A stretch of 29,699 bases of DNA, from positions 1-29,699 of the IMG/VR virus record IMGVR_UViG_3300042465_001993. One strand, 5' to 3'. A model generated the notes under the pieces. It was not told the origin of the DNA. It ran no database searches and saw only the letters and a list, made by a program, of their open reading frames with translations. Of the stretch, positions 5,209-29,699 are shown in pieces; position 1 is the first letter of the stretch; each line of letters opens with the position of its first letter. The position numbers were made by a program, and so were the translations under genes. This stretch comes from a virus.

Positions 5209-6129
5209 ATGCCTAGTTATTCCGGCGTATGGACTCTCACGGCTCAGTTCCAGGCTATTGGGCAGAACAACTGGACTGGCCTGCCTGTTAGTATTGATTT
5301 ACTTGTCATTGCGGGTGGCGGTGGCGCTGTTGGCGCATACAGCACAAGTTATGAAGGATCTGGCGGAGGTGGTGCTGGAGGTGTTGTTTATAAAACGTCG
5401 TATTCAGCCGATATTGGTTCTGCGTATACGGTTACTGTAGGCGCAGGCGGCGCTGCTGTTGTAGCCACGGGAGCAGCACAAGTCGCCAATAACGGATCAG
5501 ATAGCCTGTTTGGAAGTAGCGTCATCGTTTCCAAAGGTGGCGGTGGTGGTGGCGGGTATCAGATTGGCGGTACTGGCGGAAGCGGTGGCGGCTCCGGTTA
5601 CGGATACACAACCGGCGGAACATCTAACCAAAGCAGTTCTGGCACAAGCGCCGGTGGAACCTCGTATGGAAATGCCGGTGGTACGCGCGGGACTACAACC
5701 GTTCTCGGTGGATCCGGCGGCGGCGGCGCGGGTGGCGTGGGTGGCACTGTTGTTACGCCCCCGATTTACAACGGTGGAGCGGGTGGTGCAGGTATTGCAA
5801 ACTCCATCACTGGATCGTCTGTTACCTATGCTGGTGGTGGCGGCGGCGGCGCAGGCTACACAGGTGGAGGAACTGGGGGCGCTGCCGGATCAGGTGGCGG
5901 TGGCCGAGGGTCTGACACCGGAACAAGCAATGCAACAAGTGGTACAGCAAATACTGGCGGTGGCGGTGGCGGCGGTGTAAACACATTCCCCGCAGGGAAT
6001 GGTGGCTCCGGTGTTGTCATCATCAGCGCGCCGCGAGCAGCCGCATCTACGACGGGCTCACCGACCGTCACGACATCTGGTGGCCGCACCATCTACACGT
6101 TCAATGCTTCTGGCAGCATCACTTTCTGA
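5209..6129 (+). CDS. Glycine-rich tail-tip adhesin-like protein (306 aa)
   Basis: The ATG lies two bases after the upstream stop. Residues 1-35 form a short leader domain including PVSIDLLVIAGGGG. The centre (about 35-265) is dominated by poly-Gly blocks (GGGGAGG, KGGGGGGGYQ, YAGGGGGGAG) separated by Thr/Ser-rich spacers, and the C-terminus reads NGGSGVVIISAP, then SGGRTIYTFNASGSITF. The GGxGVVI...YTF ending is the hallmark of the phage glycine-rich domain family. Glycine-rich blocks in known phage receptor-binding tips (for example T-even gp38-type adhesins) pack as polyglycine-II helices with variable loops between. A receptor-binding role is inferred. Confidence 0.75.
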   Translation: MPSYSGVWTLTAQFQAIGQNNWTGLPVSIDLLVIAGGGGAVGAYSTSYEGSGGGGAGGVVYKTSYSADIGSAYTVTVGAGGAAVVATGAAQVANNGSDSLFGSSVIVSKGGGGGGGYQIGGTGGSGGGSGYGYTTGGTSNQSSSGTSAGGTSYGNAGGTRGTTTVLGGSGGGGAGGVGGTVVTPPIYNGGAGGAGIANSITGSSVTYAGGGGGGAGYTGGGTGGAAGSGGGGRGSDTGTSNATSGTANTGGGGGGGVNTFPAGNGGSGVVIISAPRAAASTTGSPTVTTSGGRTIYTFNASGSITF

Positions 6130-6137
6130 GGTAACGC

Positions 6138-6497
6138 ATGGCGCACTTTGCAGAGATTGACTCCCAAGGCACTGTGCTGCGGGTAATCGTCGTCCACAAT
6201 AACGAACTTATAGATAACGGCGGCGAGTCTGAATCCAAAGGGATTGCCTTCTGCCAATCCTTGTTTGGCGGCAACTGGGTGCAGACTTCCTACAACGCCA
6301 ACTTTCGCAAGAACTATGCGGGAGAGGGTTTCACCTACGACGCGGTGCGTGACGCTTTTATCCCGCCGAAGCCATATCCTTCGTGGGCACTAAATGAAGA
6401 CACCTGCCGGTGGGATTCTCCCATCCCCTATCCCACGGATGGGAAACGCTATACCTGGGACGAAACCCAACAAGCATGGATTGAGGTGCAGCCATGA
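6138..6497 (+). CDS. Conserved small phage tail-region protein (119 aa)
   Basis: GAGGTAA just upstream supports the ATG at 6138. The protein starts MAHFAEIDSQGTVLRVIVVH, then FCQSLFGGNWVQTSYNANFR, KNYAGEGFTYD, RDAFIPPKPYPSW and a C-terminal DGKRYTWDETQQAW. I recognise this as a family widespread in marine phages, usually found next to tail fibre or adhesin genes and without an assigned function. Aromatic residues are strikingly frequent (many Trp, Tyr, Phe). Its stop overlaps the start of the LamG protein by four bases, indicating translational coupling. A tail accessory or fibre-assembly role is plausible but unproven. Confidence 0.7.
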   Translation: MAHFAEIDSQGTVLRVIVVHNNELIDNGGESESKGIAFCQSLFGGNWVQTSYNANFRKNYAGEGFTYDAVRDAFIPPKPYPSWALNEDTCRWDSPIPYPTDGKRYTWDETQQAWIEVQP

Positions 6498-8608
6498 GTC
6501 ATCAGTGGCCCGGTGGCCTTATCAGACCTATCCCTCCAACTCCGGCAGGCCCGTACCAAGACGGTGCTGCTCCTGGGGTGTGGACGCTCGACCAGATGAA
6601 CTACTGGCTCAAGCAAGGGCTGTGGCCGATTGCGGGTAATATTGCCCCTGATCCGTACTTTGAGTACGTCACGATGCTGCTCCCCGGCAACGGCACGAAC
6701 GGGGCGCAGAACAACACGTTCCTCGACAGCAGCACCAACAACTTCACGATCACCCGCAACGGCAACACGACGCAGGGCACGTTCAGCCCGTTTGGGAGCA
6801 ACTGGTCGAACTCTAGTTTTAGCGGTTCCGCGTATCTAACCTACAACCCCGGCGCTACTGCGGCGTTTGGGACTGGCGACTTTACGGTTGAGGCTTGGGT
6901 CTTTGCGACGGAAGCCTTATCAAGCGGCGACAACCCATATATCTGCGATACCCGAGGTGGTGGCGGGGCATGGTCATTTTCTTGGAACTGGACTGGTTCT
7001 GCAAATCCTTGGCAACTTGCTTGGGCCAATTCCTCTGCGCTTCAATCAAGCACATCCATGCCTCTCAACACATGGAACCATTGCGCGTATGTACGCAGCG
7101 GAACAACAGGCACCTTGTATCTGAACGGTGTGTCCATTGGCACATGGACGGATAGTTACAACTACTCTTCTTCGGTCACATCCATAACTATTGGCCGAAG
7201 GTTTACTACGACTGGGCAGACGCAGTGGCTCCCCGGATACTTGTCTAACCTGCGAATCGTCAAGGGCACCGCTGTCTACACCGGCGCTTTCACGCCGCCG
7301 ACATCTCCCCTCACCGCAATCACCAACACGGTATTGCTGACCTGTCAGAGCAACCGCTTCATCGACAACAGCAGCAACGCATTCGCCATCACGGTCAACG
7401 GCTCCCCAAGCGTCCAACGCTTCAGCCCGTTCAATCCGACTGCGCCCTATGCCGCAGGCACTGATGGCGGGAGTGGGTACTTTGATGGGAGTGGAGATTC
7501 GCTGACCACTAGCAGTCTGCCATCTTTCAATGGAGACTTTGATATTGAATTTTGGGTTTATTCAACCGCTATTAGCACACCGTTTTATTTGTACAGAAGC
7601 GGTGATGCATACCCACTTGTAAGCATACAAGTTTCTTTTAGTTCTGCGTTGCGTGCCGATGTTTCAACAGATGGGGCGACATCCACAACCTTGACCCATC
7701 AAAGTACAGCCGTGGCGGGACAATGGAATCATGTTGCGTTGACGCGCTCAGGAACTACAGTTCGTCTATTTTTGAACGGCGTAGTGTCCAGTTCCACAAT
7801 AACTGTGTCTGGAGCGATATCAACAACAAGCGCTGTAACTTACCTTGGTACCGGCGCGGCATTGCTTACTGGCTACCTTAGTAATTTGCGCGTTGTTCAA
7901 GGTTCTGCTGTCTATACAAGTAGTTTCACACCCCCTTCTTCGCCTGTCACAGCAATTACCAACACTAGCCTCCTGCTGAATTTCACCAACGCAGGCATCA
8001 TCGACAACGCCGAGATGAACAACCTTGAAACGGTTGGCAACGCGCAGATCAGCACCGCGCAGAGCAAGTTCGGTGGGGCGTCGATGTACTTTGATGGAAG
8101 TGGGGATGCTTTGGCGCTGCCTGCCAACATTAACTTGGCGATGGGCAGTGGCGACTTCACCATTGAGATGTGGGTTTACGCAGCCCTCGCAAGCAATAGT
8201 ACAACGGTTGGTGGAAGTTGGCCGAGATTCTTTACGCTTGGCACCGCACAGGGTTCAGGCAACATTAATTCTTATGTTGCGTCCGGCGCAACTGTGTATA
8301 TCGATATTGATGGCGCGGGTGGGCCATTAAGTTTTACGGCTTCAACACTGTTAAATTCAACTTGGAATCACTACGCAATAACCCGATCAGGCACAACACT
8401 CAAAGCATTTGTGAACGGAACTCAGGTCGCAAGTTCAACCGCTTCAAATAATCTTAATCTTGCCGCAACGACTCAAAGTTGGATCGGCGCAATTAGTTCG
8501 TCTGCGGGAACCTTCAACGGCTATATCGACGACCTCCGCATCACCAAGGGCGTAGCCCGTTACACCGCCAACTTCACAGCGCCAACAGCGGCATTCCCGC
8601 TTTTCTGA
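6494..8608 (+). CDS. Triple LamG-domain tail adhesin (704 aa)
   Basis: The start overlaps the upstream stop (ATGA). Residues 1-55 hold a Pro-rich leader with GVWTLDQMNYWLKQGLWP, seen in many aquatic phage adhesins. Three concanavalin A-like LamG domains follow (about 58-276, 279-490 and 491-704). Each carries the signature [TNS]GDF[TD][IV]E.WV[FY] and, further on, WNH.A..RSGTT plus a sheet-forming LNG or VNG. Each ends with [LD]LR[IV][VT][KQ]G.A.YT..FT.P. LamG domains bind carbohydrates or proteins, so this is a good candidate for host-surface recognition. The cores of domains 2 and 3 are visibly AT-richer than their edges. Confidence 0.8.
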   Translation: MSHQWPGGLIRPIPPTPAGPYQDGAAPGVWTLDQMNYWLKQGLWPIAGNIAPDPYFEYVTMLLPGNGTNGAQNNTFLDSSTNNFTITRNGNTTQGTFSPFGSNWSNSSFSGSAYLTYNPGATAAFGTGDFTVEAWVFATEALSSGDNPYICDTRGGGGAWSFSWNWTGSANPWQLAWANSSALQSSTSMPLNTWNHCAYVRSGTTGTLYLNGVSIGTWTDSYNYSSSVTSITIGRRFTTTGQTQWLPGYLSNLRIVKGTAVYTGAFTPPTSPLTAITNTVLLTCQSNRFIDNSSNAFAITVNGSPSVQRFSPFNPTAPYAAGTDGGSGYFDGSGDSLTTSSLPSFNGDFDIEFWVYSTAISTPFYLYRSGDAYPLVSIQVSFSSALRADVSTDGATSTTLTHQSTAVAGQWNHVALTRSGTTVRLFLNGVVSSSTITVSGAISTTSAVTYLGTGAALLTGYLSNLRVVQGSAVYTSSFTPPSSPVTAITNTSLLLNFTNAGIIDNAEMNNLETVGNAQISTAQSKFGGASMYFDGSGDALALPANINLAMGSGDFTIEMWVYAALASNSTTVGGSWPRFFTLGTAQGSGNINSYVASGATVYIDIDGAGGPLSFTASTLLNSTWNHYAITRSGTTLKAFVNGTQVASSTASNNLNLAATTQSWIGAISSSAGTFNGYIDDLRITKGVARYTANFTAPTAAFPLF

Positions 8609-13328: not shown

Positions 13329-15203
13329 ATGCCGCTGAAGAAACTCACGCTCAAGCCCGGTGTAAACAAAGAGAACACCCGCTACACCAATGAAGAGCGG
13401 GGTTGGTATGAGTGCGACAAGGTGCGCTTCCGCCAGGGTACGCCCGAGAAGATTGGCGGGTGGACCCGCATCTCTGGCAACACGTTTCTTGGTGTCTGTC
13501 GTTCTTTGTGGAACTGGGTGACCCTTAGCAATCTCAACATTGTTGGGGTTGGTACCAGTCTTAAGTTCTACCTTGAGAACGGCGGCGCATACAACGACAT
13601 CACGCCAATCCGCACGACGACCACTCTGGGCACCAACCCGTTTACAGGCAACGGCACCACGACGGTCACGGTGACTGCCCCATCACATGGCTGTGTAAAC
13701 GGTGACTTCGTGATCTTTAGCGGAGTCACCGGCACCTACGCATCTCTCCTCAACGGGCAATTTCAGATCACCTTTGTCACCGTCAACTCTTACACCATCA
13801 CCACGGCCTCGGCTGTGGCGTCAGGCGCTACAGGCGGTTCGGCGGTGTCGGCTCAGTATCAGATCAACGTCGGGCCTGAGTTTGCTGTTCCTCTAATTGG
13901 ATGGGGCGCAGGCGCTTGGGGGGCTGGATTCTGGGGTATTGGTGGCACGTCCAATACGGCCATTCGATTGTGGGGTCAAGACAACTTTGGTGAAGACTTG
14001 ATCTTTGGTCCTCGTGGTGGCGGAATCTACTACTGGGATGCCTCAACAAGTTTGTCCACTCGGGGTGTGGCTCTGTCTTCCTTGGCGGGAGCATCGGATG
14101 TCCCGACCAAGCAGAACTATATTTACGTTTCCGATATTAATCGGTTTGTGTTCTGCTTTGGATGCAACGACTACGGCTCTGCAACGCTTGACCCAATGCT
14201 GATCCGGTGGTCGGATCAAGAAAGCGCGGTCAACTGGACCCCATCGGCCACCAATCAGGCAGGCAGTCTCCGGCTGTCTCACGGGTCGGAGATTGTCACG
14301 GCAGTCCAGACCCGTCAGGAAATCGTGGTCTTCACGGACTCCGCCATCTACTCCATCCAATACCTTGGAGCGCAGGCAGGTGTCTGGGGCGCCCAACTCC
14401 TTGGCGACAATATCTCCATCGAAGGCCAGAACGCTGCGGTGATTGCATCAGGCGTGGTGTACTGGATGGGTGTAGACAAGTTCTACCAGTACGACGGTCG
14501 TGTTCAAACGCTGCCCTGCGATCTGCGCCGGTATGTGTTCAGCGACTTCAATCAAGCCCAGGCGGCTCAGGTCTACGCCGGAACCAATGAAGGATTCAAT
14601 GAGGTCTGGTGGTTCTACCCGTCTGCCAATTCAACCGTCAATGATCGGTATGTTGTTTACAACTACCTTGAGAAGATTTGGTACTACGGCAACCTGGGCC
14701 GGACAGCATGGCTTGACTCCGGCCTGCTCGACTTCCCCATTGCAGCAACGTACATTGGCACTAATCTTGGAAACAACGTGGGGAACCTTGTTCTCCATGA
14801 GAACGGTGTAGACGATAACGCCACAGGAACCCCCACGGCCATCAACGCTTACATTGAGTCCGCTGAGTTCGACATCGAAGACGGGCAGAACTTTGGTTTT
14901 GTCTGGCGTATGCTGCCGGACGTGACGTTTACAGGCTCGACGGCAAACAATCCGTCGCTGACCATGACGTTGATCCCAATGACGGGCGCAGGCTCTGGGT
15001 TTAACAACCCTCAGTCTCTTGGTGGTTCAAGCAGCGCAGCGGTCACGCGGTCGGCAACGGTGCCGATTGAGCAGTTCACAAACATCGTTTACATCCGGGT
15101 GCGCGGGCGGCAGTTGATTATGAAAGCCGAATCCAACGCGCTTGGTGTGGCGTGGCAGTTAGGCTCCCCCCGTATCGACGTTCGGATGGATGGCCGCAGA
15201 TGA
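13329..15203 (+). CDS. Tail nozzle/stabilisation-like virion protein (624 aa)
   Basis: GGGAGA upstream supports the ATG at 13329. The N-terminus holds CDKVRFRQGTPEKIGGWTRI and VGVGTSLKFYLENGGAYNDI followed by TPIR, a pattern I know from large tail proteins of short-tailed phages resembling P22 gp10 stabilisation proteins. An inserted domain (about residues 97-178) carries GCVNGDFVIFSGVTG and NSYTITTASAVASG. The remaining part is beta-propeller-like (WSDQESAVNWTPSATNQAGS, then GVVYWMGVDKFYQYDGRVQT). It probably forms the lower tail tube or nozzle with the adaptor. The stop overlaps the next start. No peptidase or lyase motif is evident. Confidence 0.7.
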   Translation: MPLKKLTLKPGVNKENTRYTNEERGWYECDKVRFRQGTPEKIGGWTRISGNTFLGVCRSLWNWVTLSNLNIVGVGTSLKFYLENGGAYNDITPIRTTTTLGTNPFTGNGTTTVTVTAPSHGCVNGDFVIFSGVTGTYASLLNGQFQITFVTVNSYTITTASAVASGATGGSAVSAQYQINVGPEFAVPLIGWGAGAWGAGFWGIGGTSNTAIRLWGQDNFGEDLIFGPRGGGIYYWDASTSLSTRGVALSSLAGASDVPTKQNYIYVSDINRFVFCFGCNDYGSATLDPMLIRWSDQESAVNWTPSATNQAGSLRLSHGSEIVTAVQTRQEIVVFTDSAIYSIQYLGAQAGVWGAQLLGDNISIEGQNAAVIASGVVYWMGVDKFYQYDGRVQTLPCDLRRYVFSDFNQAQAAQVYAGTNEGFNEVWWFYPSANSTVNDRYVVYNYLEKIWYYGNLGRTAWLDSGLLDFPIAATYIGTNLGNNVGNLVLHENGVDDNATGTPTAINAYIESAEFDIEDGQNFGFVWRMLPDVTFTGSTANNPSLTMTLIPMTGAGSGFNNPQSLGGSSSAAVTRSATVPIEQFTNIVYIRVRGRQLIMKAESNALGVAWQLGSPRIDVRMDGRR

Positions 15204-16576
15204 GCCTGCTCATTGAAGATGCAATTGTTCCGCCGCCACCCAACCTGCCCCTTGCGCCGGGTGGTTACGACTCGCGCTATCAGGAGCAGTTCAACAACGT
15301 CCTGCGTCTGTACTTCAACCGTTTAGACGCAATACTGAGGCAGATCGTGGCAACGACATCCCCCATCCCAATCTCCATTGGCGGCACCAATACGGATGCC
15401 TTTGGGCGGCTGCGGGTCAGTCAGCCCTACACGCTCTTCGACTCTCAGCAACGCTACGCCCCTGACAATCAGTTCGATACAAGCACGGTCAACGGCGCTT
15501 CGACTTCGTTCCTGACCAATGAATCTACGGTGCTGATGTCGGTGGACAGCACCACCAACTCCGAAGCGGTGCGGCAGACGTTCCGCTCCATGTCCTACCA
15601 ACCGGGCAAGGGGCTGTTGGTGCTTGCCACCTTCGCCATGAACACGCCCACAGCCAACATCCGGCAGCGTGTGGGGTACTTCAACACCCAGAACGGCGTG
15701 TTCTTTGAGGCCAACGGCACCACGCTGTCGATGGTCATGCGCTCTGATTCTCTGCCCACGCCGGGAACGCCAAGCGATATCCGCTCGATCCCTCAGTCCG
15801 CCTGGAACGGCGACAAGTTGGACGGAACCGGGGCATCAGGCTACACGCTAGACCCAAGCAAGACGCAGATTTTCTGGTGTGACTTTGAGTGGTTGGGTGT
15901 GGGCTCGGTGCGTACCGGGTTTGTAATCGACGGGCAGTACATCGTCTGCCACACGTTTACCAACGCCAATGAGATTGGTTCTGTCTACATGACCACGGCG
16001 ATCCTGCCGGTGCGGTACGAGATCAAGAACCTGTCCAACTTGACCACCGCGAGCATGAAGCAGATTTGCTCGACGGTCATCTCTGAGGGTGGATACGAGC
16101 AGTATTCTCCAAGCCACTTGGCGCGTCGCACCACTAAACTGACCAACATCCAACTGACGTTTAAACCTGTTGTGTCGATCCGTCTGGCATCTACGGCGCT
16201 TGGTGCGGTGGTGCTTCCTGGCCGGATGCAACTGTTGCCTATCGCAAGTCAGAACTACGAAGTGGGTCTGTTCTTTAACGCGACACTAACGGGCGCTTCT
16301 TGGTCTGCCGTTTCATCTGACACCAACGTGGAGATGGACACCTCTGCCACGGCCATGACTGGCGGCACTTTGGTGCAGACGGACTATGTGTCTTCAAGCG
16401 GTTCGGGCGGTACTCAACCCTTGGTTGATCCGGCAGGCTACAACTGGGCTTTGCAGTTGGGTGTGTCCTTGGCCGGTGCCAGTGATGTCCTGACGCTTGC
16501 CATCCGCACGGTGGATTCTGCAACTCCGCAAGGTGAGTGCTACGGCACCATCGCTTTCTGGGACTTAACTCAATAA
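15200..16576 (+). CDS. Virion structural protein (458 aa)
   Basis: The ATG at 15200 overlaps the preceding TGA by four bases; an ATG at 15152 in the same frame would extend into the upstream gene. Residues 1-70 include a Pro-rich start and the helix QFNNVLRLYFNRLDAILRQI. Then DAFGRLRVSQPYTLFDSQQR, a pattern I recall in structural proteins of marine T4-like and other phages. The remainder is a long beta-rich domain with many Thr/Ser. The length and close linkage with the nozzle gene suggest a tail-attached fibre or collar protein. Exact function is not known. Confidence 0.7.
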   Translation: MSLLIEDAIVPPPPNLPLAPGGYDSRYQEQFNNVLRLYFNRLDAILRQIVATTSPIPISIGGTNTDAFGRLRVSQPYTLFDSQQRYAPDNQFDTSTVNGASTSFLTNESTVLMSVDSTTNSEAVRQTFRSMSYQPGKGLLVLATFAMNTPTANIRQRVGYFNTQNGVFFEANGTTLSMVMRSDSLPTPGTPSDIRSIPQSAWNGDKLDGTGASGYTLDPSKTQIFWCDFEWLGVGSVRTGFVIDGQYIVCHTFTNANEIGSVYMTTAILPVRYEIKNLSNLTTASMKQICSTVISEGGYEQYSPSHLARRTTKLTNIQLTFKPVVSIRLASTALGAVVLPGRMQLLPIASQNYEVGLFFNATLTGASWSAVSSDTNVEMDTSATAMTGGTLVQTDYVSSSGSGGTQPLVDPAGYNWALQLGVSLAGASDVLTLAIRTVDSATPQGECYGTIAFWDLTQ

Positions 16577-16580
16577 GATT

Positions 16581-18092
16581 ATGGCAATCAATCTATTCCA
16601 AGACCGCGACACCACGCAAGATGATCTGCTAAATATGCTTGGCGGCACATCTAATCCTGCTCAGTCAAATTCCCAGGCGCAGTCTAATGCAAACGTGCCG
16701 GATTACAGCCGTATCAATGAGTTTTACGGAAACCAATCACCTCTTGGCGTATATAACTTGCTTAGATTTGGGGCAGAACGTGGCAATTTAGAAGATGTCT
16801 CTCCATTTAGCATGGGGGATATTTCCAACTGGGCCACATCTTCTGGAGTACTTACGCCATATCAATTAGAAATGGCGCAGCAAGGTAAAAGTGTTTCCAA
16901 TGAAGATGCGCTTATGAACTTGGTAAGGTCTGTGAGTCCTCCCCCACAGCCTCCAAAAGTTACGACCGCGCCTGTTCAGCCAATTACCAACTACACCGCA
17001 CAACAAGAGTTTTTGCCTCAAAAACCGTTGGGAGGCATACAGGGCCAACTTCCCGGATCAGATTTCACGGTAGAAGATTATTACCGAGTGATGGGGGAGA
17101 AACCGCCTGCTCAAACAATGGCGGGCATGCAATCATCCACCCTCTCGCCGGAACAGTTTAAACAGTACATCTACTCTGGCGGCGCAGATGATGCAGAGGC
17201 TACTCGTCGCGGAATTGATTGGGTGACTCAGCAGGGCATGAGACCGCAGGATGCGGTGAATCTTTGGAACAATGCTCTTGGCACAAGATTTACTGTCACC
17301 GATCTGTTTGGACAGACGGGCGGTGGTCCAGAGTTTACAAACTTTGGAGATGCTGATAGTTGGATGACAGGTACTCATGCGGAGCATGATAGGTCAACTG
17401 GAATGATTAAGTCATCCGGTGCGTATTTCCAACGTGGTAATGAGGCTGTTGTTTCGGACGAGTTGTTTTGGAACCCGGGGAGCCCAACTGGAGAAGCGCT
17501 TCAAAACAAAATTGCTGATGCACAAGCCGCCGGTCAACGTGCCGGTGTTGTGATTACGCCTTACGCAGTATTCCAAGGAAAAGCAACCAACGATCAACTG
17601 CTTAATGAGGTGAAAAACTCAGGGGCTGATTTTGTTGCTCTTGATCCTTATCTTGGTTGGGGCGTTCCTGCCGATCAACTATTTGATTGGACAAAAGATT
17701 TTATAAAAGAGGTTAATGCCCTTGGGAAAGAAGTCAAACTTGTTACACAAGGATTTGCCAGAAAAGGTGAAGAAGACGCGGCTCGGGCTTATAACCAAAG
17801 ATTATTGGGATTGCCTGGGGTAAGTGAGGTTGTAAACTTTGGCCTTGAAGATTGGTTCCCAGAAGGTTCAGAAGATGCAAAACAATTGTTTTCGCCAGAG
17901 TCTGAATGGGTGTCGCTTGGAAATGATTACAAGCAACCAGAAAGACGCACGGTAAGAGGCACCGGCACGACTGTTGGCGAGCCGGGCGCAACAAAAGAAT
18001 CCGAAGGGCGCCAAAACATTGGCAGGGTAGAAAACCGAGCCAGTGCTTATGCAAATAGGATGCGTCAAGGCATCGGTGGTTTGCGCGGATAA
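16581..18092 (+). CDS. Modular protein: phage N-terminal module plus TIM-barrel-like domain (503 aa)
   Basis: The ATG at 16581 follows the upstream stop by four bases and has only a weak ribosome binding site. Residues 39-109 match the N-terminal module of the next gene (47 of 71 identical by my count). Residues about 289-425 look like alternating strands and helices of a TIM barrel: AVVSDELFWNPG, AGVVITPYAVFQ, DFVALDPYLGWG, KEVKLVTQGF and VVNFGLEDWF, each ending a strand with acidic or polar residues, as in glycoside hydrolase-like barrels. Catalytic residues cannot be fixed. Base use is AT-richer than most neighbours. Probable virion-associated enzyme or binding protein; function inferred. 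Confidence 0.6.
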   Translation: MAINLFQDRDTTQDDLLNMLGGTSNPAQSNSQAQSNANVPDYSRINEFYGNQSPLGVYNLLRFGAERGNLEDVSPFSMGDISNWATSSGVLTPYQLEMAQQGKSVSNEDALMNLVRSVSPPPQPPKVTTAPVQPITNYTAQQEFLPQKPLGGIQGQLPGSDFTVEDYYRVMGEKPPAQTMAGMQSSTLSPEQFKQYIYSGGADDAEATRRGIDWVTQQGMRPQDAVNLWNNALGTRFTVTDLFGQTGGGPEFTNFGDADSWMTGTHAEHDRSTGMIKSSGAYFQRGNEAVVSDELFWNPGSPTGEALQNKIADAQAAGQRAGVVITPYAVFQGKATNDQLLNEVKNSGADFVALDPYLGWGVPADQLFDWTKDFIKEVNALGKEVKLVTQGFARKGEEDAARAYNQRLLGLPGVSEVVNFGLEDWFPEGSEDAKQLFSPESEWVSLGNDYKQPERRTVRGTGTTVGEPGATKESEGRQNIGRVENRASAYANRMRQGIGGLRG

Positions 18093-18103: not shown

Positions 18104-21100
18104 ATGGCACGGCTTTACCAAGAAGACAGCGGATACACCGAGGACGATCTCCGAGAAATCGTAAGCGGTGCCCCCGATTACAGCCGCATTGCCTCGGCTT
18201 TGAGTAATCAGTCTCCCTATGGTGTTTACAACCTGCTGCGCTTTGGCGCAGAAAGGGGAGGTCTTGAAGGGGTCAGTCCGTTTGCCATTCAAGATATTGA
18301 ATCTTGGGCCACTCAAAGCGGAGCATTGACACCCGCTCAAGTTGAGATGGCTCGTCAGCAACGGTCATTTTCCACCGAAGAACAACTTGCTCAGGCATCT
18401 GCCCCGACGACACTGGCAGAGGCAGCGGCTCGTCCGCAAACGGTCTCTGCCCCTATTCCTGCACAAACGCCTGCAACACCGCAGGCAGTTGATGATTGGG
18501 GGCAGCAGTACCGCACGTCATATTTTGATGACGCAACCGGACAGATGGCGCTTAGGCAAGAAGATTTCTCAAGCGTGCCAACTGGGTTTAATTGGCAGGA
18601 ATATGTTCGCCTGAACCCCGATCTTGGCAAGGCCGGTATTGATACTGAAGCAGAAGCCAAGCGTCACTACGTTCAGTTTGGAGCCAAAGAAAGCCGCCCA
18701 GGCGCTCCAGTTCTGTCTTTGCAGGATGCAATCAACTTTGCAAAGACCAACATAACCGGCCAGAACGCATTTGTAGATGCGGGCGAAGCAGGACTTCAGG
18801 CGGTACCAAAACAACTGGGGCAGTTTTCTATTTCGCCCACAGGTGGGTACGGTGGCGTTCAAGGATATGACATCGCCGGGATGACCGGTAAGACGGACGC
18901 TGCGCTTCCTTTTGCTCCGGCAGGAACGCCTTACGAGCAGATCGTAAGGACAGACGCAAGCGGAAACATCATCGGTTATCAGATGAATCTGAAAACCGGT
19001 GGAGACAGTGGTTACTACGTTGATCTGGATGCACAGGGCAAGATCACCGGTGTTGATAAATACGATGAGTCGGAGAGTTGGCGTAAACCTGCTGCTCTGG
19101 CGGTCACATTCCTCGGGGCAACACTTGGCATTCCGCAGATAGGGTCGTGGTTATCCGGGGGCGCTTTGGGAGTAAAGACGGCAGGCGCGGCGGCTCTTGG
19201 GGGCGCTGCTGTTGGTGCAGCCAATGCGGCTATTGCCGGAGCAGAAGGTTCTGACATATTTAAACAGGCAGCGATTGGTGCGGCGGCAGCGGGAGCCGGT
19301 CAGTTTGCTGGTCAATATGCAGCAGAAGCCGTCAAGGCTTTGGAGTTGCAAGGCACTACAGCCGGTACGTCCCTTATCAACGCGGCAACATCAGGGGCGC
19401 AGGCTCTCCCAACCGCCATTCAAACAGGCGAGTTTTCTAACGTATTTAAACAAGCAGCACTTGGCGGATTTACATCGGCGGCAGGTTCTGAGTTGTCTAA
19501 GTCGTTGGAGGGTTCTGGGTTTACGCCAAAACAGATTCAAGGGGCATTCACGGTCGCCGCTCAGTTGGCATCAGGCAAGGTTGATCCAAGAACCCTTATT
19601 TCTGCGCTTGGTGATCTAAGCGGCCACCCAGATGCGGATGTTGCGGCAAGAGCGGCAAGGACCGGTGTTGCACTTAGTAAAGTCGATTTAAACAATCCTG
19701 CGTCGTTCACTTCAGTTCTTGGAGAACTGGCAGGGCTTGGCAAAGCAATTGATGAAAAGGCTTCAAGGCCGTTCTTGGAGGCGGCAGATGCTGCTTTGGC
19801 AGCAACGCCACGCGCTCCCGCTCCAACAGAGCAAGATGTTTTTCAATCCATCCGGTCTGAGCGTGCTCTACAGATTGAGCCGAGCATGGATGTCAAGACC
19901 CTAGAAGAAGCGGGCGCTCTTGCCGCTTCTCGTGGGTTTGGATCGTTTGAGTTTCCTGCCCGTTCGGGGATGGTTTACACCCTTGGCGGGGACATCGGGA
20001 CAGAACTGGAATCGGCAAACCGTCGCTTCATGGAGGAAGAGCGGGTTGCCAAACTGCCGGACATGAGCGCAGCCAAGTCACTTAGTGACGCAGGCATGCA
20101 GGCCATGAACACTGGCAGTGATACGTTCATGTATCAGGGCAAGGAGTACAGAACGCCTGATGCGATTGACATCGCAACCGCTCGGGCCACGGGACTGCCT
20201 GTCACTCAGATGCCGATCCCGCAAATCAAGATTGACTACGGCGCGGGCGCAGGGCGTGGCAGTTACGCCGGATACGATCCCAAGGCGGCTGCGGCGTCTC
20301 TTGCAAAAATTCCTCTGCGTCAGGGTGAACCCGCTCCTGGCGAAGAGCAGTTGGACTATGAGTCCATCCTGACCGGAATGCAAACCGGAGCGCCAGTTGG
20401 GCGTATGACAGCGCCTACGGTTGGTTCTCCTTTCTTGGAGTCTGCCGGTCGAGTCATCCCTGCAACCGGGCAATACCTTGCATCGCAACTTGAGTCCGGC
20501 ATGCTTCGCGCCGGTCAGTTGGCTTTTGGCCCTGAAGGTCTGATTCCGCTTCTGTCCGAAGACGCAAAGGCCCGAGAAGAAGGGCGGATGAGCGAGATTT
20601 ACAGAGAGCAGCAGCGGTTGCTTTCTTCTCTGCCAGAGAATGAACGGCTTGCGGTAACTGGACTCTCGTCAGGAATCATTTCTGCTGCGGGCTTGCCACT
20701 TGGTGGGCCTGCTGCGTCTATCGTATTTGGCGTTTCCAATACTGCCAATCAGACATGGCAGGATGGACTTGAGCGTGGACTTGATCCCAGTCAGAACGCC
20801 ATGCGTACGGCGGTTCAGTCAAGTATTGAACTGGTTGGGGAACTGGCGGGTGTGCCATTCCTGAAGAGCATTCTGCGTGGGGTTCCTTCCAACGCAACGC
20901 CGCAACAGATGGTTGCCTATGTCATTGACAAGGCCAAGGGTGTCGTGGGTGAGGAAGTAACTGAAGTTATTACTTCTGTTTTCCAGAACATTGCTGACAA
21001 GTTTGCACAACTTGGCGGGGTTGATAAAACTCCCGTAACGCTTGAGGAGTCTTTGAAGACGGCAGGTCAGGCTGCTGTTCAAACGCTGTATTCAATTGGT

Positions 21101-23188
21101 GTTCAAGGTGGTGCAGGCGCAGCAGGACGTGGCGCTCAAAATCTTGCCCAGAATGCCATTAGCACTCTAGAGCAGTCTTCTCAACAGACTCCATCTGTTC
21201 CCAATCTGCCGACGATTGAGGCTGCTCCGGTCAATCAGCCGGTTAATGTTTCACGTCCTACCGTCATCACACAGCCTGGAGAACTCAGTGTCTTCCCGGT
21301 AGAAGCAGCCTACAACGATCCAACCATGCAGGCGCTTCAGCAGGCGGGGCTGATTGAGGCTGTTCCCGGCGTAGAGACTGTGTTTAAACCGGGCGCAGCG
21401 GCCAACGAAATTTCCGCAATAGAAAGCCAGCCGCTTCCAACCGCAACACCCGATCTTGCGCCGACAGCGGGGGCAACTGCCCTTGCTCCAAAGTTGGAAG
21501 TCACTCCTGCACTTCAACTTTCTGTTGCTCCCGGCACCGCTCCCGTTGCCAAGCCAAAAGAAGAGGCGGCAAACGAGCCAGAGGTTAAGCCTGAGATCAC
21601 GCCCGAGCAGAAGAAAGACACGGCAGAGGACAAGAAAGACACTGTTGTTGCTTATGACAACGATGGCAATCCAGTAACTCAAAAGGAACTGGAGAACATC
21701 GCCGCCGGTAAAGGAAACATTCCGTCGAGCAAAATCAAACCAGACACGGTTATTGCTGTAGACCGTGATGGAAATGCGTTGACTGCGGCGGATGTTGGCG
21801 CGGCACCCTCTCCTGCACCCTCTCCTGCACCGGCTCCTAGTGCTGCGCCATCTGCTGCACCGTCTGCGGCACCGAGTGTTGCCCCTGCTCAGGCTCCTGC
21901 TCAGGCCCCTAGTCCGGCGCCGAGTCAAGCACCGGCTCCTAGCCCTGCCCCATCTCCTGCGCCAAGTCCTGCGCCGTCCCCCGCTCCTTCACCCGCGCCG
22001 AGTCAGGCTCCCTCTCCTGCGCCCTCTCAAGCGCCAAGTCCTGCTCCGGCGCCTGCTCCCGCTCAGGCCCCTGCGCCAAGCCCTGCGCCCGCCCAGGCTC
22101 CTAGCCCTGCTCCGTCTCCGGCACCAAGTCAAGCGCCTGCTCCCGCTCCTAGTCCTGCGCCGAGTCCTGCACCGGCTCAAGCACCTAGTCCCGCTCCCGC
22201 GCAAGCCCCGAGTCCGGCACCCGCTCCGTCTCAAGCGCCTGCTCCAAGTCCGGCTCCGGCGCAAGCACCATCTCCCGCGCCGAGTCCTGCGCCAGCCCCA
22301 AGTCCCGCACCATCGCCTGCACCGGCTCCCTCTCCTGCGCCAAGCCCTGCTCCTGCACCGTCTCCTGCACCGGCTCCCTCTCCTGCGCCAAGCCCTGCTC
22401 CTGCACCGTCTCCTGCACCGGCTCCCGCGCCCACACCGGCGCCCAGTCCTGCACCAAGCCCTGCACCAACTCCGGCGCCATCGCCTGCGCCTGCTCCTAG
22501 TCCTGCACCAACACCTTCCCCGGCGCCTGCTCCCGAACCCGCTCCGGCGCCTGCTCCTGAACCCGCTCCGGCGCCTACACCGGCACCAAGTCCCGCACCG
22601 AGTCCGACACCCGCTCCTGCCCCGGAACCAAGCCCTGCTCCGGCGCCCGAGCCATCTCCTGCTCCAACACCTGCGCCCGCACCCACAACGGAACCTCCGG
22701 TTACACAACCTCCGGTAGTGGCGCCACCAACTGTTGCGCCTCCTCCTCCGGTATCGCCGCCTCCAGTTGTGCCGCCACCTGTGGTGCCTCCGCCGGTCAC
22801 ACCACCGACGGTCACGCCACCGACTGTGACCCCGTCAACGGTGACGCCTCCCAAGGCGCCGGTTATCAAATTCCCTCCGAGGCCCACAAGAGCCCCGATG
22901 CCGATGGTTGCTCAGGCACCAACAGCAGGGGGGTCATTCCGGCCAGGGGTGGCAGATGTGTTTTATGGAAAAGGCGCGGTCCAGTTTGGGGCCAAGTCCA
23001 AGTCGATGGCGGATGTCACCGATTTCCAAGGCAGAAAAGAACAGGCTCGTCGTTCTATGGAACTTGCCCTTGAGGGTGAGGGCGGTGAAAATGGGGCAGA
23101 TGATGCCTACACCCGTTTGATGGCGCTCGCGGATGAGAATCCGGCGGCCACCATTGATGAACTGATGAAGATTATTGGAAGGGGCTGA
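18104..23188 (+). CDS. Giant virion-associated protein with Ala/Pro/Ser-rich tract (1694 aa)
   Basis: Starts 11 bases after the previous gene. Order of parts: residues 23-93 share the module of the preceding gene; about 164-199 hold a WxxYVRLNPDL...HYVQFG-type repeat unit; about 328-414 are Ala/Gly-rich helices; about 845-1030 are helical with GEEVTEVITSVFQNI. Residues near 1180-1230 contain two DxDGN segments (AYDNDGN, AVDRDGN). A Pro/Ala/Ser tract spans 1235-1527, then a Pro/Val/Thr linker to about 1597, and a C-terminal globular part of about 97 residues. Length, Ala/Gly helices and neighbours suggest an internal virion protein ejected with DNA. No peptidase or lysozyme motif was recognised. 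Confidence 0.65.
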   Translation: MARLYQEDSGYTEDDLREIVSGAPDYSRIASALSNQSPYGVYNLLRFGAERGGLEGVSPFAIQDIESWATQSGALTPAQVEMARQQRSFSTEEQLAQASAPTTLAEAAARPQTVSAPIPAQTPATPQAVDDWGQQYRTSYFDDATGQMALRQEDFSSVPTGFNWQEYVRLNPDLGKAGIDTEAEAKRHYVQFGAKESRPGAPVLSLQDAINFAKTNITGQNAFVDAGEAGLQAVPKQLGQFSISPTGGYGGVQGYDIAGMTGKTDAALPFAPAGTPYEQIVRTDASGNIIGYQMNLKTGGDSGYYVDLDAQGKITGVDKYDESESWRKPAALAVTFLGATLGIPQIGSWLSGGALGVKTAGAAALGGAAVGAANAAIAGAEGSDIFKQAAIGAAAAGAGQFAGQYAAEAVKALELQGTTAGTSLINAATSGAQALPTAIQTGEFSNVFKQAALGGFTSAAGSELSKSLEGSGFTPKQIQGAFTVAAQLASGKVDPRTLISALGDLSGHPDADVAARAARTGVALSKVDLNNPASFTSVLGELAGLGKAIDEKASRPFLEAADAALAATPRAPAPTEQDVFQSIRSERALQIEPSMDVKTLEEAGALAASRGFGSFEFPARSGMVYTLGGDIGTELESANRRFMEEERVAKLPDMSAAKSLSDAGMQAMNTGSDTFMYQGKEYRTPDAIDIATARATGLPVTQMPIPQIKIDYGAGAGRGSYAGYDPKAAAASLAKIPLRQGEPAPGEEQLDYESILTGMQTGAPVGRMTAPTVGSPFLESAGRVIPATGQYLASQLESGMLRAGQLAFGPEGLIPLLSEDAKAREEGRMSEIYREQQRLLSSLPENERLAVTGLSSGIISAAGLPLGGPAASIVFGVSNTANQTWQDGLERGLDPSQNAMRTAVQSSIELVGELAGVPFLKSILRGVPSNATPQQMVAYVIDKAKGVVGEEVTEVITSVFQNIADKFAQLGGVDKTPVTLEESLKTAGQAAVQTLYSIGVQGGAGAAGRGAQNLAQNAISTLEQSSQQTPSVPNLPTIEAAPVNQPVNVSRPTVITQPGELSVFPVEAAYNDPTMQALQQAGLIEAVPGVETVFKPGAAANEISAIESQPLPTATPDLAPTAGATALAPKLEVTPALQLSVAPGTAPVAKPKEEAANEPEVKPEITPEQKKDTAEDKKDTVVAYDNDGNPVTQKELENIAAGKGNIPSSKIKPDTVIAVDRDGNALTAADVGAAPSPAPSPAPAPSAAPSAAPSAAPSVAPAQAPAQAPSPAPSQAPAPSPAPSPAPSPAPSPAPSPAPSQAPSPAPSQAPSPAPAPAPAQAPAPSPAPAQAPSPAPSPAPSQAPAPAPSPAPSPAPAQAPSPAPAQAPSPAPAPSQAPAPSPAPAQAPSPAPSPAPAPSPAPSPAPAPSPAPSPAPAPSPAPAPSPAPSPAPAPSPAPAPAPTPAPSPAPSPAPTPAPSPAPAPSPAPTPSPAPAPEPAPAPAPEPAPAPTPAPSPAPSPTPAPAPEPSPAPAPEPSPAPTPAPAPTTEPPVTQPPVVAPPTVAPPPPVSPPPVVPPPVVPPPVTPPTVTPPTVTPSTVTPPKAPVIKFPPRPTRAPMPMVAQAPTAGGSFRPGVADVFYGKGAVQFGAKSKSMADVTDFQGRKEQARRSMELALEGEGGENGADDAYTRLMALADENPAATIDELMKIIGRG
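21806..22684 (+). repeat. Coding Ala/Pro/Ser repeat tract (about 293 codons)
   Basis: This is built from short units such as PAPS, PAPA, PSQAP and PAPTP in the giant protein. Synonymous codons are mixed (ccg, ccc, cct, cca), so the tract is mostly not a recent microsatellite. Its high G+C and absence of stop triplets keep several other frames open, producing long false ORFs on both strands. A disordered or polyproline II-like rigid spacer is expected. Confidence 0.85.
22316..22426 (+). repeat. Perfect 48-base tandem duplication inside the Pro-rich tract
   Basis: Two identical 48-base units (22316-22363 and 22364-22411) are followed by 15 bases of a third copy. The unit encodes 16 residues and starts cctgcaccggctccc. 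Unlike the rest of the tract there is no synonymous difference between copies, so this looks like a recent slippage or unequal recombination event, or an assembly artefact in a repetitive region. Confidence 0.8.
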
Positions 23189-23189
23189 G

Positions 23190-24065
23190 ATGCCGATCAA
23201 TCCAGAGACAGGTCAAAAGTACACCTCTGTTTGGGGAAATCTTGACGACAACTACATGGACTTCGGGGCAGGAGACGTTCCGTTTGGCTCTACCACAGAC
23301 TACGGACTGAAGAGTCTTACGGACCAACTGTCTAGTCCTGGTTTTGCAAAATTCCTTAAATCGCTTGGCGGGGTATTTACAGGCGATACGGCAGGAAGGG
23401 CGGGACAGTTTGCGGCCTTTGGTGGTATTGCTGCCCTACTCAACAGGATGATGGGTGACCAACAGCAAAAGCCTGTTGGCTATCAAGGTGGCATCCCGAA
23501 GTTCACCTATGAGCGCACCCAGACCCCTCTTGCTCAACAGCGCCCCGAAGGCTACCGTCCCGGCCAAGGCGGCATCTCTTACTTCACCCCCGGTACATTT
23601 AAATATGCAGGGTACACACCAAAGACTGCTCAGGAGTTTTTGACTGCACCGACCACAACGGGTGGTGGCACGTCTGGGGGCGCATCTGGTGGTGGCTCTG
23701 GCGAAGTAACACTTCCTGGCAGTGACATGATTCGGGAAGGAAACACCACGGTCATCACAAATGCCGCAGGTGGCTACATGCCCGGTGGTATCGCCATGCT
23801 TGCTAAAGGCAGATACCTCAAGGGCAACGGTGATGGTGTATCCGATTCCATTCCTGCACGCTTTGCAGGTTCAGGCCAAGAGGCTCGACTGGCAGATGGA
23901 GAGTTTGTGATTCCTGCCCGGGTTGTGTCTGAGATTGGTAATGGTTCATCCGATGCAGGCGCTCGGAAACTTTATGCAATGCTTGACCGTGTTGAGGCTC
24001 GGGCAAAGAAAGCAAAGCGCGGCAAGCCGTCCGGCGCTGATCGTGAACTAAAGAAACTTGCTTGA
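23190..24065 (+). CDS. Conserved aquatic phage virion-associated protein (291 aa)
   Basis: GGAAGGGG just upstream supports ATG at 23190 over the in-frame TTG at 23175. The N-terminal half has a Gly/Ala helix (AGQFAAFGGIAALLNRMMGD), the centre is Gly/Thr-rich. The C-terminal part carries GNGDGVSDSIPARF, QEARLADGEFVIPARVVSEI and GNGSSDAGARKLYAMLDRVE. This C-terminal block is very familiar from uncultured marine phages, where it recurs at the end of unrelated proteins with no assigned role. The gene lies among the putative ejected proteins. I infer a virion component. Confidence 0.7.
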   Translation: MPINPETGQKYTSVWGNLDDNYMDFGAGDVPFGSTTDYGLKSLTDQLSSPGFAKFLKSLGGVFTGDTAGRAGQFAAFGGIAALLNRMMGDQQQKPVGYQGGIPKFTYERTQTPLAQQRPEGYRPGQGGISYFTPGTFKYAGYTPKTAQEFLTAPTTTGGGTSGGASGGGSGEVTLPGSDMIREGNTTVITNAAGGYMPGGIAMLAKGRYLKGNGDGVSDSIPARFAGSGQEARLADGEFVIPARVVSEIGNGSSDAGARKLYAMLDRVEARAKKAKRGKPSGADRELKKLA

Positions 24066-26595: not shown

Positions 26596-29500
26596 ATGAA
26601 CTTTGATGAGATCGCCCGCAAGTATGGCGGCGCACCTTCTTCGTCTGAGTTAAGTCTTGACGAGGTTGCACAAAAGTATGGCGGCGTTCTCTCTGACGGG
26701 GAAAAACCAAAGACTGACCGCACCGCTATCGAGGCAGGCACGGACATCCTTGCCTCTGGTGTCCGAGGGCTTGGCAGTCTGCTTCAGTTCCCTGGTCAGG
26801 TTGTTGGTCTCCTGCCAGGGGCCCGTCCGGTTGGTGAGTTTTTTCAGAAGCCCGGTGAGTTCATTGGAGACATTGGCGAACGCCTGAAGTCCGACGGTTT
26901 AAAGGCCCGTCAGGCGCTTCAGAGCAAGACCATCTCTGAGGCCGAGAAGGATGGTGTGCTTGCGCAGTTTGCAACTGCCATCACCACCACTCTCAAGGAC
27001 CCTGCGCTCATCACCTCGTTTGTTGCCGAGCAGGTTCCTCAACTGCTTGGTCCTGCTGCTGCCGTTAAGGTTACGCAGAAGATTGGTGCTAAGGCTATTG
27101 AGTCTGCCGGTGTTGGGCTGACCGGCGCGGCTGCTGATCAGGCAGTTAAAGAGGCGGTCAAGTCTGTAAACAGGCGTGCTGCTGGTGCTGCATACGGCAC
27201 TGGCGCAGCCATGCAGGCCGCAGATGTAAGTGATAACACTTACCGCGACGCATATCAGAAGGCCATTGAGTCTGGACTTTCTGAAGAAGAGGCGGCAGAC
27301 AAGGCTATTGATGCAGCCCGTATCGCAGGCGCAGGCGCAGGTGTAACCGCTTTGCTTGCTCAGAGACTTCCTGGCGCACAGGCGATTGAACGCCGTCTTG
27401 CAGGAGTCCCTGGCTCCAAGGGCAGGATTGCATCCGGTCTTGGTGAGGCCATCGGTGAGTCTCTTGAAGAGGGCGGTGGTCAGGTCTTCAAGAACATTGG
27501 TCTGCGTCAGGTCGATCCCAGTCAATCGTTGGTTGAAGGGGTTGGTGGTGCTGCGGGTCTTGGCGCTCTTGGCGGCGGCATCTTGGGTACAGCCCTTGGA
27601 AAGAGGGCTGTTGAGCAAGAGCAACGCTTTGAGGGTCAGCGTGAGGGCGAGACGGACCGTCAGTTTGCCGCCCGTTTACAGCGCGAGATTGATGCAGGGC
27701 TTCGTCCGCCCGCACCTCCGCCCGCCGCGCCAACGCTGCCGACGGACCAGCAACTGTTTACATTGGCTGCCCAGCCGAACGGCTACGGCCTGCTGGAGAA
27801 TTTAAAGCAGCGGGTTCTTCAGGATCAGCAGTTCCCTGAAGCCGACCGCAATGCTTTGGCAAACAACATTGCCAACCTCCAACTGAAAATGACGGAGGAG
27901 GAGGCTACTCGCGCCCAATCTCCGAAGTCCATCGTCACTCAGGCAGAACTTAGTCAGGCAGGCATCCCCTCAAACGATCCTTTGGCATCTATTGCCAATC
28001 GGGACTTTGTTGCGGACAACCAAGTCTTTGACACGATCAATCAAGCCTTGTCCGGCGAGATCACGGACGAGCAACGTAAACGCTACGAAGGCTTGTACGA
28101 GGGCCTGTCACAACTGCGGCAGGACTTCTACCCTGAAGGCCAGGATGCGGGTATCCCGCAGATGGTTACGCCTCCCGCACCTCCGCCCGCTCCCGCTCCG
28201 CAAATCAAGTCCACCATCGAACTCTTCGACATGGCAGCGAAGAACGATTACGGCGGGATTGAGCAATATAAACAAACCCTCAAGACGTTTACACAGACGC
28301 AGGAGGTTGTGCAGGCTATTCGTGATGCTGAGTTCGTGCAGAACCGCATGAACGTCGAGGCAGCACAGCGTCAGAAGCAAATCGGAAAGCCACCCGAGGC
28401 ACCCATCTCCGCAGAAGCAGAGAAGGCGGAGGGCGAAGCAGAAACCGTTGAGCCGGTCATTCCTGGGGCGGTAGAGAAGGTCACGAAGATCAAGGGGCCC
28501 ATGCCCCCGAAGATGCCTGTGCGGGCCAAGGAGTTGCCACAGCCCGCTGCGCCGATCCCTGAGGATGTGGCTGCGGCAGAGAAGGCCGTCAAGGATGCAG
28601 AGCGCCTGCGCCGCACCGCTACACGGGAAAGCCCCAGTCTGTTTACAGCACTGCGCGGCAAGTTGACCCCGACCGAGGTCAGCGATGTGGGGGGCACATC
28701 TCTGCGATTCAGACCGCTGATCAACAAGACCAAGGGCGACAGCATCAGCACTTTCGTTGCCAACGGCGATCTTGATCCGTGGCTGCCGCCCGACAAGCGT
28801 CTTGGTGCTCCCAACTACGATGAGTACGACAACACCGAATTCATCAAGGAACAACTGCGTCAGGGCAATTTCCTGACGCAAGAAGCCAATGTTCAGATCA
28901 AGGCTGCGTTTGAAGGCATTCAGCAAGCCGAGTCCCTGATCCGCGAATACCTAACACCCAAGGAAGTTGAGGCACTGATCAATGAAGCCCAAGATGAGCA
29001 AAGACGAATTGATCAAGCGGCTAAGAGGACTGCCGCCGAGCGTCCGCCTGGAACTGCTGAAACGGAGGATGTCGGCGATGCCGGCCTGGACCTCGGGCCA
29101 GAATTTGAAGCCCAACCCCTCGGTGAAAGGGTAGTCAAGAAGTCTCTGGCGGCCATCCCAGAGGCCCGGTTTAAAGAACTGGAGCGCCGGGTTAAACAGG
29201 CAGAGCAGCGGGCCGACGAGGCCGAGAAGGCCGTGGAGCAGGCTGAAGAAGCCAAGCCCGAGGTGCCGCCCGAGATTCAGAAGAAGATTGAGATTCTGAA
29301 GCAGGTGCTTCGGAAGAACTTGAACAAGTTCGGTCTGAAGGATGTCGAACTGAACCTTGAGCGCGGCATGACCGACGAGGGCAGTTACGACGGCATGCTG
29401 ATCAAGTTGGCCCTGGATGCGGCTGACCCGCTTGGCATCCTGCGCCATGAGTCCGTCCATGCTCTGAAGGAGGCAGGCTTCTTCACCGACAAGCAGTGGG

Positions 29501-29699
29501 CAACCCTGGAGAAGATGGCCGACACCAAGTGGATCGACCAATACCTCAAGGGCCAGCGCACCGTTTACAACGGCCAGGAGATGAGCCGTTACGAAGGCTA
29601 CATGCAGGAGTACGGCGGCAACATGGCAATGATCCGCGAGGAAGCCATTGCTGATGCGTTCCGTAACTTCTCCAAGAAGCAGCCTGCCGGTCTGATGGG
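26596..29699 (+). CDS. Polyvalent-type phage protein with zincin metallopeptidase domain (3' truncated)
   Basis: The frame is open from ATG at 26596 (AAAGG site upstream) to the right edge, at least 1034 codons. The N-terminus has two copies of DE[IV]A.KYGG. Residues about 170-350 are Ala/Gly-rich helices, including GEAIGESLEEGGGQVFKNI (283-301). Pro/Ala linkers and charged helices follow. At residues 951-955 HESVH matches the HExxH zinc motif, inside GILRHESVHALKEAGFF, with EEAIADAF (from residue 1015) supplying a possible third ligand. Zincin domains of this form occur in phage polyvalent proteins that are packaged and delivered with DNA. The C-terminal part lies outside the window. Confidence 0.7.
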   Translation, partial: MNFDEIARKYGGAPSSSELSLDEVAQKYGGVLSDGEKPKTDRTAIEAGTDILASGVRGLGSLLQFPGQVVGLLPGARPVGEFFQKPGEFIGDIGERLKSDGLKARQALQSKTISEAEKDGVLAQFATAITTTLKDPALITSFVAEQVPQLLGPAAAVKVTQKIGAKAIESAGVGLTGAAADQAVKEAVKSVNRRAAGAAYGTGAAMQAADVSDNTYRDAYQKAIESGLSEEEAADKAIDAARIAGAGAGVTALLAQRLPGAQAIERRLAGVPGSKGRIASGLGEAIGESLEEGGGQVFKNIGLRQVDPSQSLVEGVGGAAGLGALGGGILGTALGKRAVEQEQRFEGQREGETDRQFAARLQREIDAGLRPPAPPPAAPTLPTDQQLFTLAAQPNGYGLLENLKQRVLQDQQFPEADRNALANNIANLQLKMTEEEATRAQSPKSIVTQAELSQAGIPSNDPLASIANRDFVADNQVFDTINQALSGEITDEQRKRYEGLYEGLSQLRQDFYPEGQDAGIPQMVTPPAPPPAPAPQIKSTIELFDMAAKNDYGGIEQYKQTLKTFTQTQEVVQAIRDAEFVQNRMNVEAAQRQKQIGKPPEAPISAEAEKAEGEAETVEPVIPGAVEKVTKIKGPMPPKMPVRAKELPQPAAPIPEDVAAAEKAVKDAERLRRTATRESPSLFTALRGKLTPTEVSDVGGTSLRFRPLINKTKGDSISTFVANGDLDPWLPPDKRLGAPNYDEYDNTEFIKEQLRQGNFLTQEANVQIKAAFEGIQQAESLIREYLTPKEVEALINEAQDEQRRIDQAAKRTAAERPPGTAETEDVGDAGLDLGPEFEAQPLGERVVKKSLAAIPEARFKELERRVKQAEQRADEAEKAVEQAEEAKPEVPPEIQKKIEILKQVLRKNLNKFGLKDVELNLERGMTDEGSYDGMLIKLALDAADPLGILRHESVHALKEAGFFTDKQWATLEKMADTKWIDQYLKGQRTVYNGQEMSRYEGYMQEYGGNMAMIREEAIADAFRNFSKKQPAGLM

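Follow-up and report, generated by a model that had tools for sequence, protein, structure and literature searches.

A predicted beta/alpha barrel with a conserved acidic mouth in a cassette slot of a phage virion-module protein

An open reading frame (ORF) of 503 amino acids in the virion module of an IMG/VR virus very probably encodes a compact beta/alpha (TIM-type) barrel at residues 250–450, as judged from an AlphaFold2 model and structural comparison, and in an alignment with its relatives the invariant acidic residues gather at the C-terminal ends of the barrel strands. We read the domain as an optional, virion-carried barrel cassette acting on a host-envelope glycan, a reading in which our confidence and our doubt are about equal.

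The barrel gene and its neighbourhood

The window analysed here is the whole IMG/VR virus record IMGVR_UViG_3300042465_001993 (29,699 bases), in which no tRNA genes were found; the features under discussion are collected in Table 1. The barrel ORF lies between a match to phrog_1645 ('virion structural protein', 15152–16576, 4e-103 in the PHROG search) and a giant protein, both of the virion module, in the same order as in DSL-LC04, described in the cited portion of PMC10611076 as a lake metagenome-assembled phage. It is thus encoded within the virion module, as is looked for in virion-associated depolymerases. Further upstream are a match to phrog_3287 (13329–15203; again 'virion structural protein' in the PHROG search) and a phage lysozyme (12810–13313; Pfam PF00959). 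By tblastn, nine of 27 tested window ORFs match a 29-kb stretch of DSL-LC04 and one of the 27 matches the HMO-2011 stretch examined, while the structural protein at 15152–16576 has relatives in 177 phage records, HMO-2011 among them, the closest being that of DSL-LC04 (60%).

Table 1. Coordinates of the barrel gene, its predicted elements and the adjoining genes
Feature	Positions	Strand	Remark
503-aa ORF with barrel domain	16581..18092	+	also present in full in an IMG/VR contig that matches the window exactly for 10,694 bases
N-terminal region common with next gene, aa 37–140	16689..17000	+	51% identity
Second copy of shared N-terminal region	18164–18481		in next gene
Helical module, aa 190–246	17148..17318	+	four helices in model; precedes enzyme domains in relatives
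Predicted beta/alpha barrel domain, aa 250–450	17328..17930	+	
Barrel model strand starts	17331, 17442, 17538, 17631, 17730, 17820, 17907	+	
S292-D293-E294	17454..17462	+	invariant; C-terminal end of model strand 2
D355 (LDPY)	17643..17645	+	invariant; model strand 4 end
Q390 (VTQGF)	17748..17750	+	invariant in 8/8 rows; model strand 5 end
E423-D424 (NFGLED)	17847..17852	+	invariant; model strand 6 end
D449 (ND)	17925..17927	+	invariant; after model strand 7
1694-aa virion-module protein	18104..23188	+	aa 130–554, 69% identity, collinear with L006 protein after its barrel
296-aa ORF	23175..24065	+	C-terminal part matches C-terminus of L006 giant protein

The original prediction, made from the window sequence, had called the gene AT-richer than most of its neighbours, and its G+C of 0.481 is in fact the lowest of the 26 ORFs examined (window, 0.56). 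The barrel part has a G+C of 0.459 and a GC3 of 0.328, and the N-terminal part is also low (0.477). The accompanying idea that the barrel had been imported fared less well. In five of the seven relatives examined (L004, L006, L007, L018 and L020) linker and barrel together have a lower GC3 than the remainder of their ORF, but L039 gives nearly the same value for both and in L014 the order is reversed, a mixed outcome that we do not accept as evidence of import.

Relatives of the barrel

Scans of viral contigs found barrel relatives on 12 contigs, one of which is the contig identical to the window listed in Table 1. The alignment used for conservation (A6) holds the window and seven distinct relatives, 55–80% identical over helical module plus barrel; a second alignment of seven sequences (A4) was used for folding, so that L039 is in A6 and absent from the model. 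L009 was left out of the alignments, as were L008, L015 and L019, whose proteins are the same or nearly the same as those of L007, L014 and L020. L009 (3300045125_000028, 5400–7300) has many frame breaks, as in uncorrected long reads, and encodes a more divergent barrel that keeps the DPYIGW motif.

Searches of Pfam, NCBIfam, PHROGs and PDB chains gave no sequence match of the barrel domain to any glycosidase. Neither the Pfam glycosidase models nor the GTA_TIM Pfam model matched any of the eight family members at E values up to 10, and the SGNH/GDSL models PF13472/PF00657 did not match the window barrel domain. The family profile found only unrelated proteins among PDB chains (best E 0.13). 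Profile comparison with hhalign returned a probability of 0.1–0.3% with no supporting alignment for GH10, and of 0.1%, with no detectable relation, for the SGNH domain. No relative of the barrel domain was found in phage records or plasmids, nor in two genome-contig scans with short peptide patterns, by which distant relatives would be missed. Two candidate relatives were set aside: Microcystis phage Mae-JY22 (tblastn E 9), a chance match in an ORF whose product looks unrelated, and LIT1 gp53 (730 aa), equated by protein length with the LIT1 SGNH-type protein in the viral Foldseek list, which was not counted because its N-terminal part is different.

The barrel is under purifying selection in the closest distinct pair, L014–L018 (dN 0.036, dS 0.69), the only pair with unsaturated dS; among 28 pairs, barrel dS was obtained for 11 and lay below 1 in this one, the others being at or near saturation.

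Predicted fold

AlphaFold2 run on A4 over aa 189–460 gave a model with mean pLDDT 78.1 and pTM 0.70, in which the helical module is followed by alternating strands and helices, with seven strands assigned and not eight. Blocks of 10 residues average about 80–96 pLDDT over model residues 91–230; the averages fall to 67 in the part that holds the first strand and to 56–73 around the last helix and strand. A single-sequence AlphaFold2 run on the whole ORF was poor (pLDDT 44) and was not used for conclusions.

In the structural comparison with VIA-align, 161 of 1000 chains reached a Z of at least 8. The best was PdxJ (pyridoxine 5'-phosphate synthase; Z 11.0, rmsd 4.4, 159 residues aligned), below which GH10 (Z 10.2, rmsd 3.5, 176 aligned), GH53 (Z 10.0, rmsd 3.9, 191 aligned) and GH128 (Z 9.5, rmsd 4.3, 176 aligned) make up most of the list. 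A family absent from that list is not thereby excluded, and a GH114/GH135-like order of motifs is a further candidate. According to the guidance for the method, models that have no clear match typically reach a best Z of 7–8, and the values for the barrel are therefore above background. Foldseek against the PDB gave one match below 1e-3 (PdxJ, E 1.7e-4), with a query TM of 0.38 or less, and listed N-acetylneuraminate lyase, DHDPS and ribulose-phosphate epimerase alongside glycosidases; its best viral match, at 52% identity over only 58 columns, may be to the helical module. A shared fold by itself shows no function.

Model and structural comparison thus agree on the beta/alpha barrel that had been proposed, with seven strands and with moderate confidence in closure by the first and last of them. 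The four strings quoted in support of that proposal (SDELFWNPG, ALDPYLGWG, LVTQGF and FGLEDW) all occur in the ORF, in that order and inside 17445–17860, and they lie at the C-terminal ends of model strands 2, 4, 5 and 6 of the seven; an additional strand, AGVVITPY, lies between the first two. As to the extent of the domain, the span 17445–17860 put forward for it does fall inside the barrel, and the full domain extends past both ends, to about 17328–17930.

Conserved acidic residues at the barrel mouth

In TIM barrels the residues of the active or ligand site lie at the C-terminal ends of the strands. With a strand end defined as the last strand residue and the four that follow, and counting the Asp and Glu of the window sequence, six of seven acidic residues at strand ends are invariant in A6, against 3/24 in the rest of the domain (Fisher p=7e-4); for residues of any type the corresponding figures are 23/35 and 57/169 (p=5e-4). 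The end of strand 2 was set at model residue 103, one past the DSSP end. When the segments were slid from -15 to +15 residues, the count of invariant acids peaked at 6 at shifts 0 and +1 (4 at -1) and was at most 1 at shifts beyond about 5 residues either side; random placement of the segments reached 6 in 37 of 20000 trials. Since the model was built largely from the same sequences, the placement of the strands depends in part on the same data as the conservation. The clustering of acidic residues at strand ends that had been anticipated is therefore present, and fades as the segments are moved. Counted from the first strand of the model, strands 4 and 7 end in D355 and D449 respectively, and D293, E294, D355, Q390, E423, D424 and D449 are candidate residues of the predicted mouth.

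The cassette slot after the helical module

One further scan placed the helical module (about 58 aa) at 26 loci. Twelve are on barrel-bearing contigs, two of which also carry an SGNH domain: these are L007 and its near-copy L008, where the module is present twice, first ahead of the SGNH domain and then ahead of the barrel. Another two (L047, L048) carry SGNH without the barrel. In 11 more the module leads into Pro/Ala-rich sequence with neither enzyme, as seen from inspection of at most about 420 aa beyond it (three of the 11 by 200-aa identity to another locus), and at the remaining locus the contig stops short. The SGNH domains that follow the module match the Pfam GDSL families PF13472/PF00657 (1.6e-14 in L007, 1.9e-13 in L047), and some relatives have a DUF4214 domain upstream. 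On sequence comparison, then, the region is a cassette: behind the module comes a barrel or an SGNH/GDSL hydrolase, the two together, or a Pro/Ala-rich stretch.

The giant virion-module protein and its split form

In L006 a single protein of 2248 aa (stop-to-stop length) is collinear with three adjacent window genes, which therefore correspond to one protein there. Its first part is the barrel, matching aa 177–452 of the 503-aa protein at 78%, and its C-terminal part matches aa 212–279 of the third window protein at 50%. A C-terminal motif of that third protein also occurs in DSL-LC04, where the gene carries the annotation 'tail tape measure protein'. The original prediction of a barrel attached to a virion-module N-terminus is borne out and can be extended, the cassette being fused in relatives to a giant virion-module protein. 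The region aa 37–140 is a possible common docking region, and the shared N-termini of the first two genes suggest that each gene fragment may have kept a copy of it. Between 21800 and 22900 the 1694-aa protein contains a long Pro-Ala-Ser repeat (PAPSPAPS...) with a G+C of about 0.70; its relatives have other low-complexity repeats, for example a Thr/Asn-rich one in L004.

Possible function

Given a barrel with an acidic mouth, a slot shared with SGNH hydrolases and a virion-module protein, an envelope-glycan enzyme is the simplest reading. The barrel, with its predicted ligand-binding mouth of conserved acids, would be an optional enzyme cassette set into the N-terminal portion of a giant virion-module protein found in HMO-2011/DSL-LC04-like phages; in the window this cassette would have become a separate gene, taking a copy of the N-terminal region with it. 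Carried in the particle, the protein would act during adsorption or entry on a glycan of the host envelope, perhaps hydrolysing capsule, exopolysaccharide, LPS or peptidoglycan, and the SGNH/GDSL hydrolase that shares or takes the slot in relatives may act likewise.

The earlier description of the domain as glycoside hydrolase-like stands in part: it is plausible from the GH10, GH53 and GH128 structural neighbours, against which must be set a sequence that matches no glycosidase and the nearness of aldolases and PdxJ, barrels of other function whose scores equal or exceed those of the glycosidases. The glycosidase label is accordingly a plausible one drawn from predicted structure and context only, and whether the barrel is an active glycosidase is a matter on which our doubt slightly outweighs our belief.

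One alternative turns on Q390. Clan GH-A enzymes (GH10/GH128) have a set order of motifs on strands 4 to 8, to which VVSDELFW, AGVVITPY, FVALDPY, VKLVTQGF and VVNFGLEDW can be fitted; on this alternative mapping E294, in SDELFW, would be the acid/base on strand 4, and the invariant glutamine of VTQGF (8/8 rows) would take the position of the nucleophile Glu on strand 7. The domain could then be a catalytically dead or non-hydrolytic barrel, a lectin-like binder of a glycan receptor whose mouth is a binding site. We think this unlikely, because the mapping is unsupported by hhalign against GH10, a strand is already present in the model far ahead of SDE, and the invariant D355, E423, D424 and D449 at the mouth exceed the needs of simple binding. 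A bolder version combines these elements into a new TIM-barrel family missing from sequence libraries, one of several interchangeable cassettes in an 'enzyme bay' of the giant particle protein, which, if fitted to clan GH-A with Gln at the nucleophile position, would work by substrate assistance or through another acid (D355/E423), or would be a glycan-gripping pseudo-enzyme travelling with the particle or ejected from it; this we regard as quite improbable.

The barrel might instead be an enzyme of another kind (lyase, aldolase, phosphodiesterase or epimerase) with a sugar or some other small metabolite as its substrate. PdxJ tops the VIA-align results, the Foldseek list includes lyase, DHDPS and epimerase, and the only NCBIfam match among the eight members is to an aldolase model (E 0.043, one member). 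None of the invariant lysines (model residues 146, 195, 198, 207 and 246) lies at the C-terminal end of a strand, where one that forms a Schiff base might be expected (K198 is within strand 5), and the setting in a virion-module protein, next to an SGNH hydrolase, is easier to reconcile with a surface glycan; we regard this explanation as improbable. A purely structural or assembly domain, with residues conserved for folding or docking, is very unlikely: the Pro/Ala-rich partners do suggest extended structural proteins, and the barrel is absent from 11 of the 26 module loci and therefore not essential, but its invariant acids lie mostly at strand C-ends and an SGNH hydrolase fills the slot in other contigs.

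The slot that this barrel family, invisible to sequence searches, shares with SGNH hydrolases marks a site in one giant virion-module protein at which phage enzymes can be sought by position rather than by sequence, and the barrel is a small, testable domain. Were it a depolymerase or a receptor-gripping barrel, it would shed light on the way in which phages of this poorly cultured group cross the host envelope.

Relation to known systems

Clan GH-A (GH10, GH53, GH128) gives Z 9–10 over 170–190 residues against the predicted barrel and likewise has acids at strand C-ends; in contrast, the window barrel has no sequence or profile match, is about 200 residues long with seven assigned strands, and has only a putative catalytic Glu pair, in which Gln may stand for the nucleophile. 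Small TIM barrels such as PdxJ, which gives the best Z, are of similar size, but show 9–16% identity in the listed rows and are metabolic enzymes outside any virion context. A domain of the SGNH/GDSL type known from phage tail fibres follows the helical module in this slot in L047 and L007; its fold differs from that of the barrel domain.

We take SSF51445, the (trans)glycosidase superfamily of Acinetobacter phage Aci07 gp45, to be a barrel superfamily. Aci07 gp45 is described in the cited part of PMC11058221 as a tail fibre with a (trans)glycosidase-superfamily domain and a proposed depolymerase; it is thus a phage tail protein with a barrel-superfamily domain like ours, but one recognised by sequence, whereas the window barrel is unrecognised by sequence and lies in or beside a giant virion-module protein. 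The same portion of that source reports the SGNH domain of a tail protein, phage Aristophanes gp41, as a deacetylase, and the section of PMC10684548 used here describes how enzymatic domains of tail proteins are shuffled. The RcGTA 'megatron' (GTA TIM barrel-like), as presented in the cited passages of PMC8601537, likewise has a barrel in a tail or penetration protein, but the gene order differs and the window family does not match the GTA barrel Pfam models. Because barrel and SGNH tail domains and domain shuffling have already been published, the kind of arrangement is known, and the original suggestion of a novel depolymerase arrangement is weakened by the tail-fibre (trans)glycosidase and SGNH domains in PMC11058221, so far as the cited text goes. 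The barrel sequence family and its slot do appear to be new: no description of either was found in open-access text, where a nameless family is hard to search for.

Other features of the window

Of the 26 ORFs, the one at 3983–5206 (407 aa) has the lowest GC3 (0.387) and ranks second from the bottom in G+C (0.502); its weak PHROG matches include a minor tail protein. At 6494–8608 an ORF of 704 aa contains three laminin-G/concanavalin A-like stretches (Pfam PF13385, 3.6e-50), and its product is a possible glycan-binding virion protein. The large ORF at 26596–29697, which is cut by the window end, gave no match in a Pfam search and begins with two similar YGG repeats; it probably encodes an ejection protein, and the HESVH motif near its end is, we presume, suggestive of a zinc peptidase.
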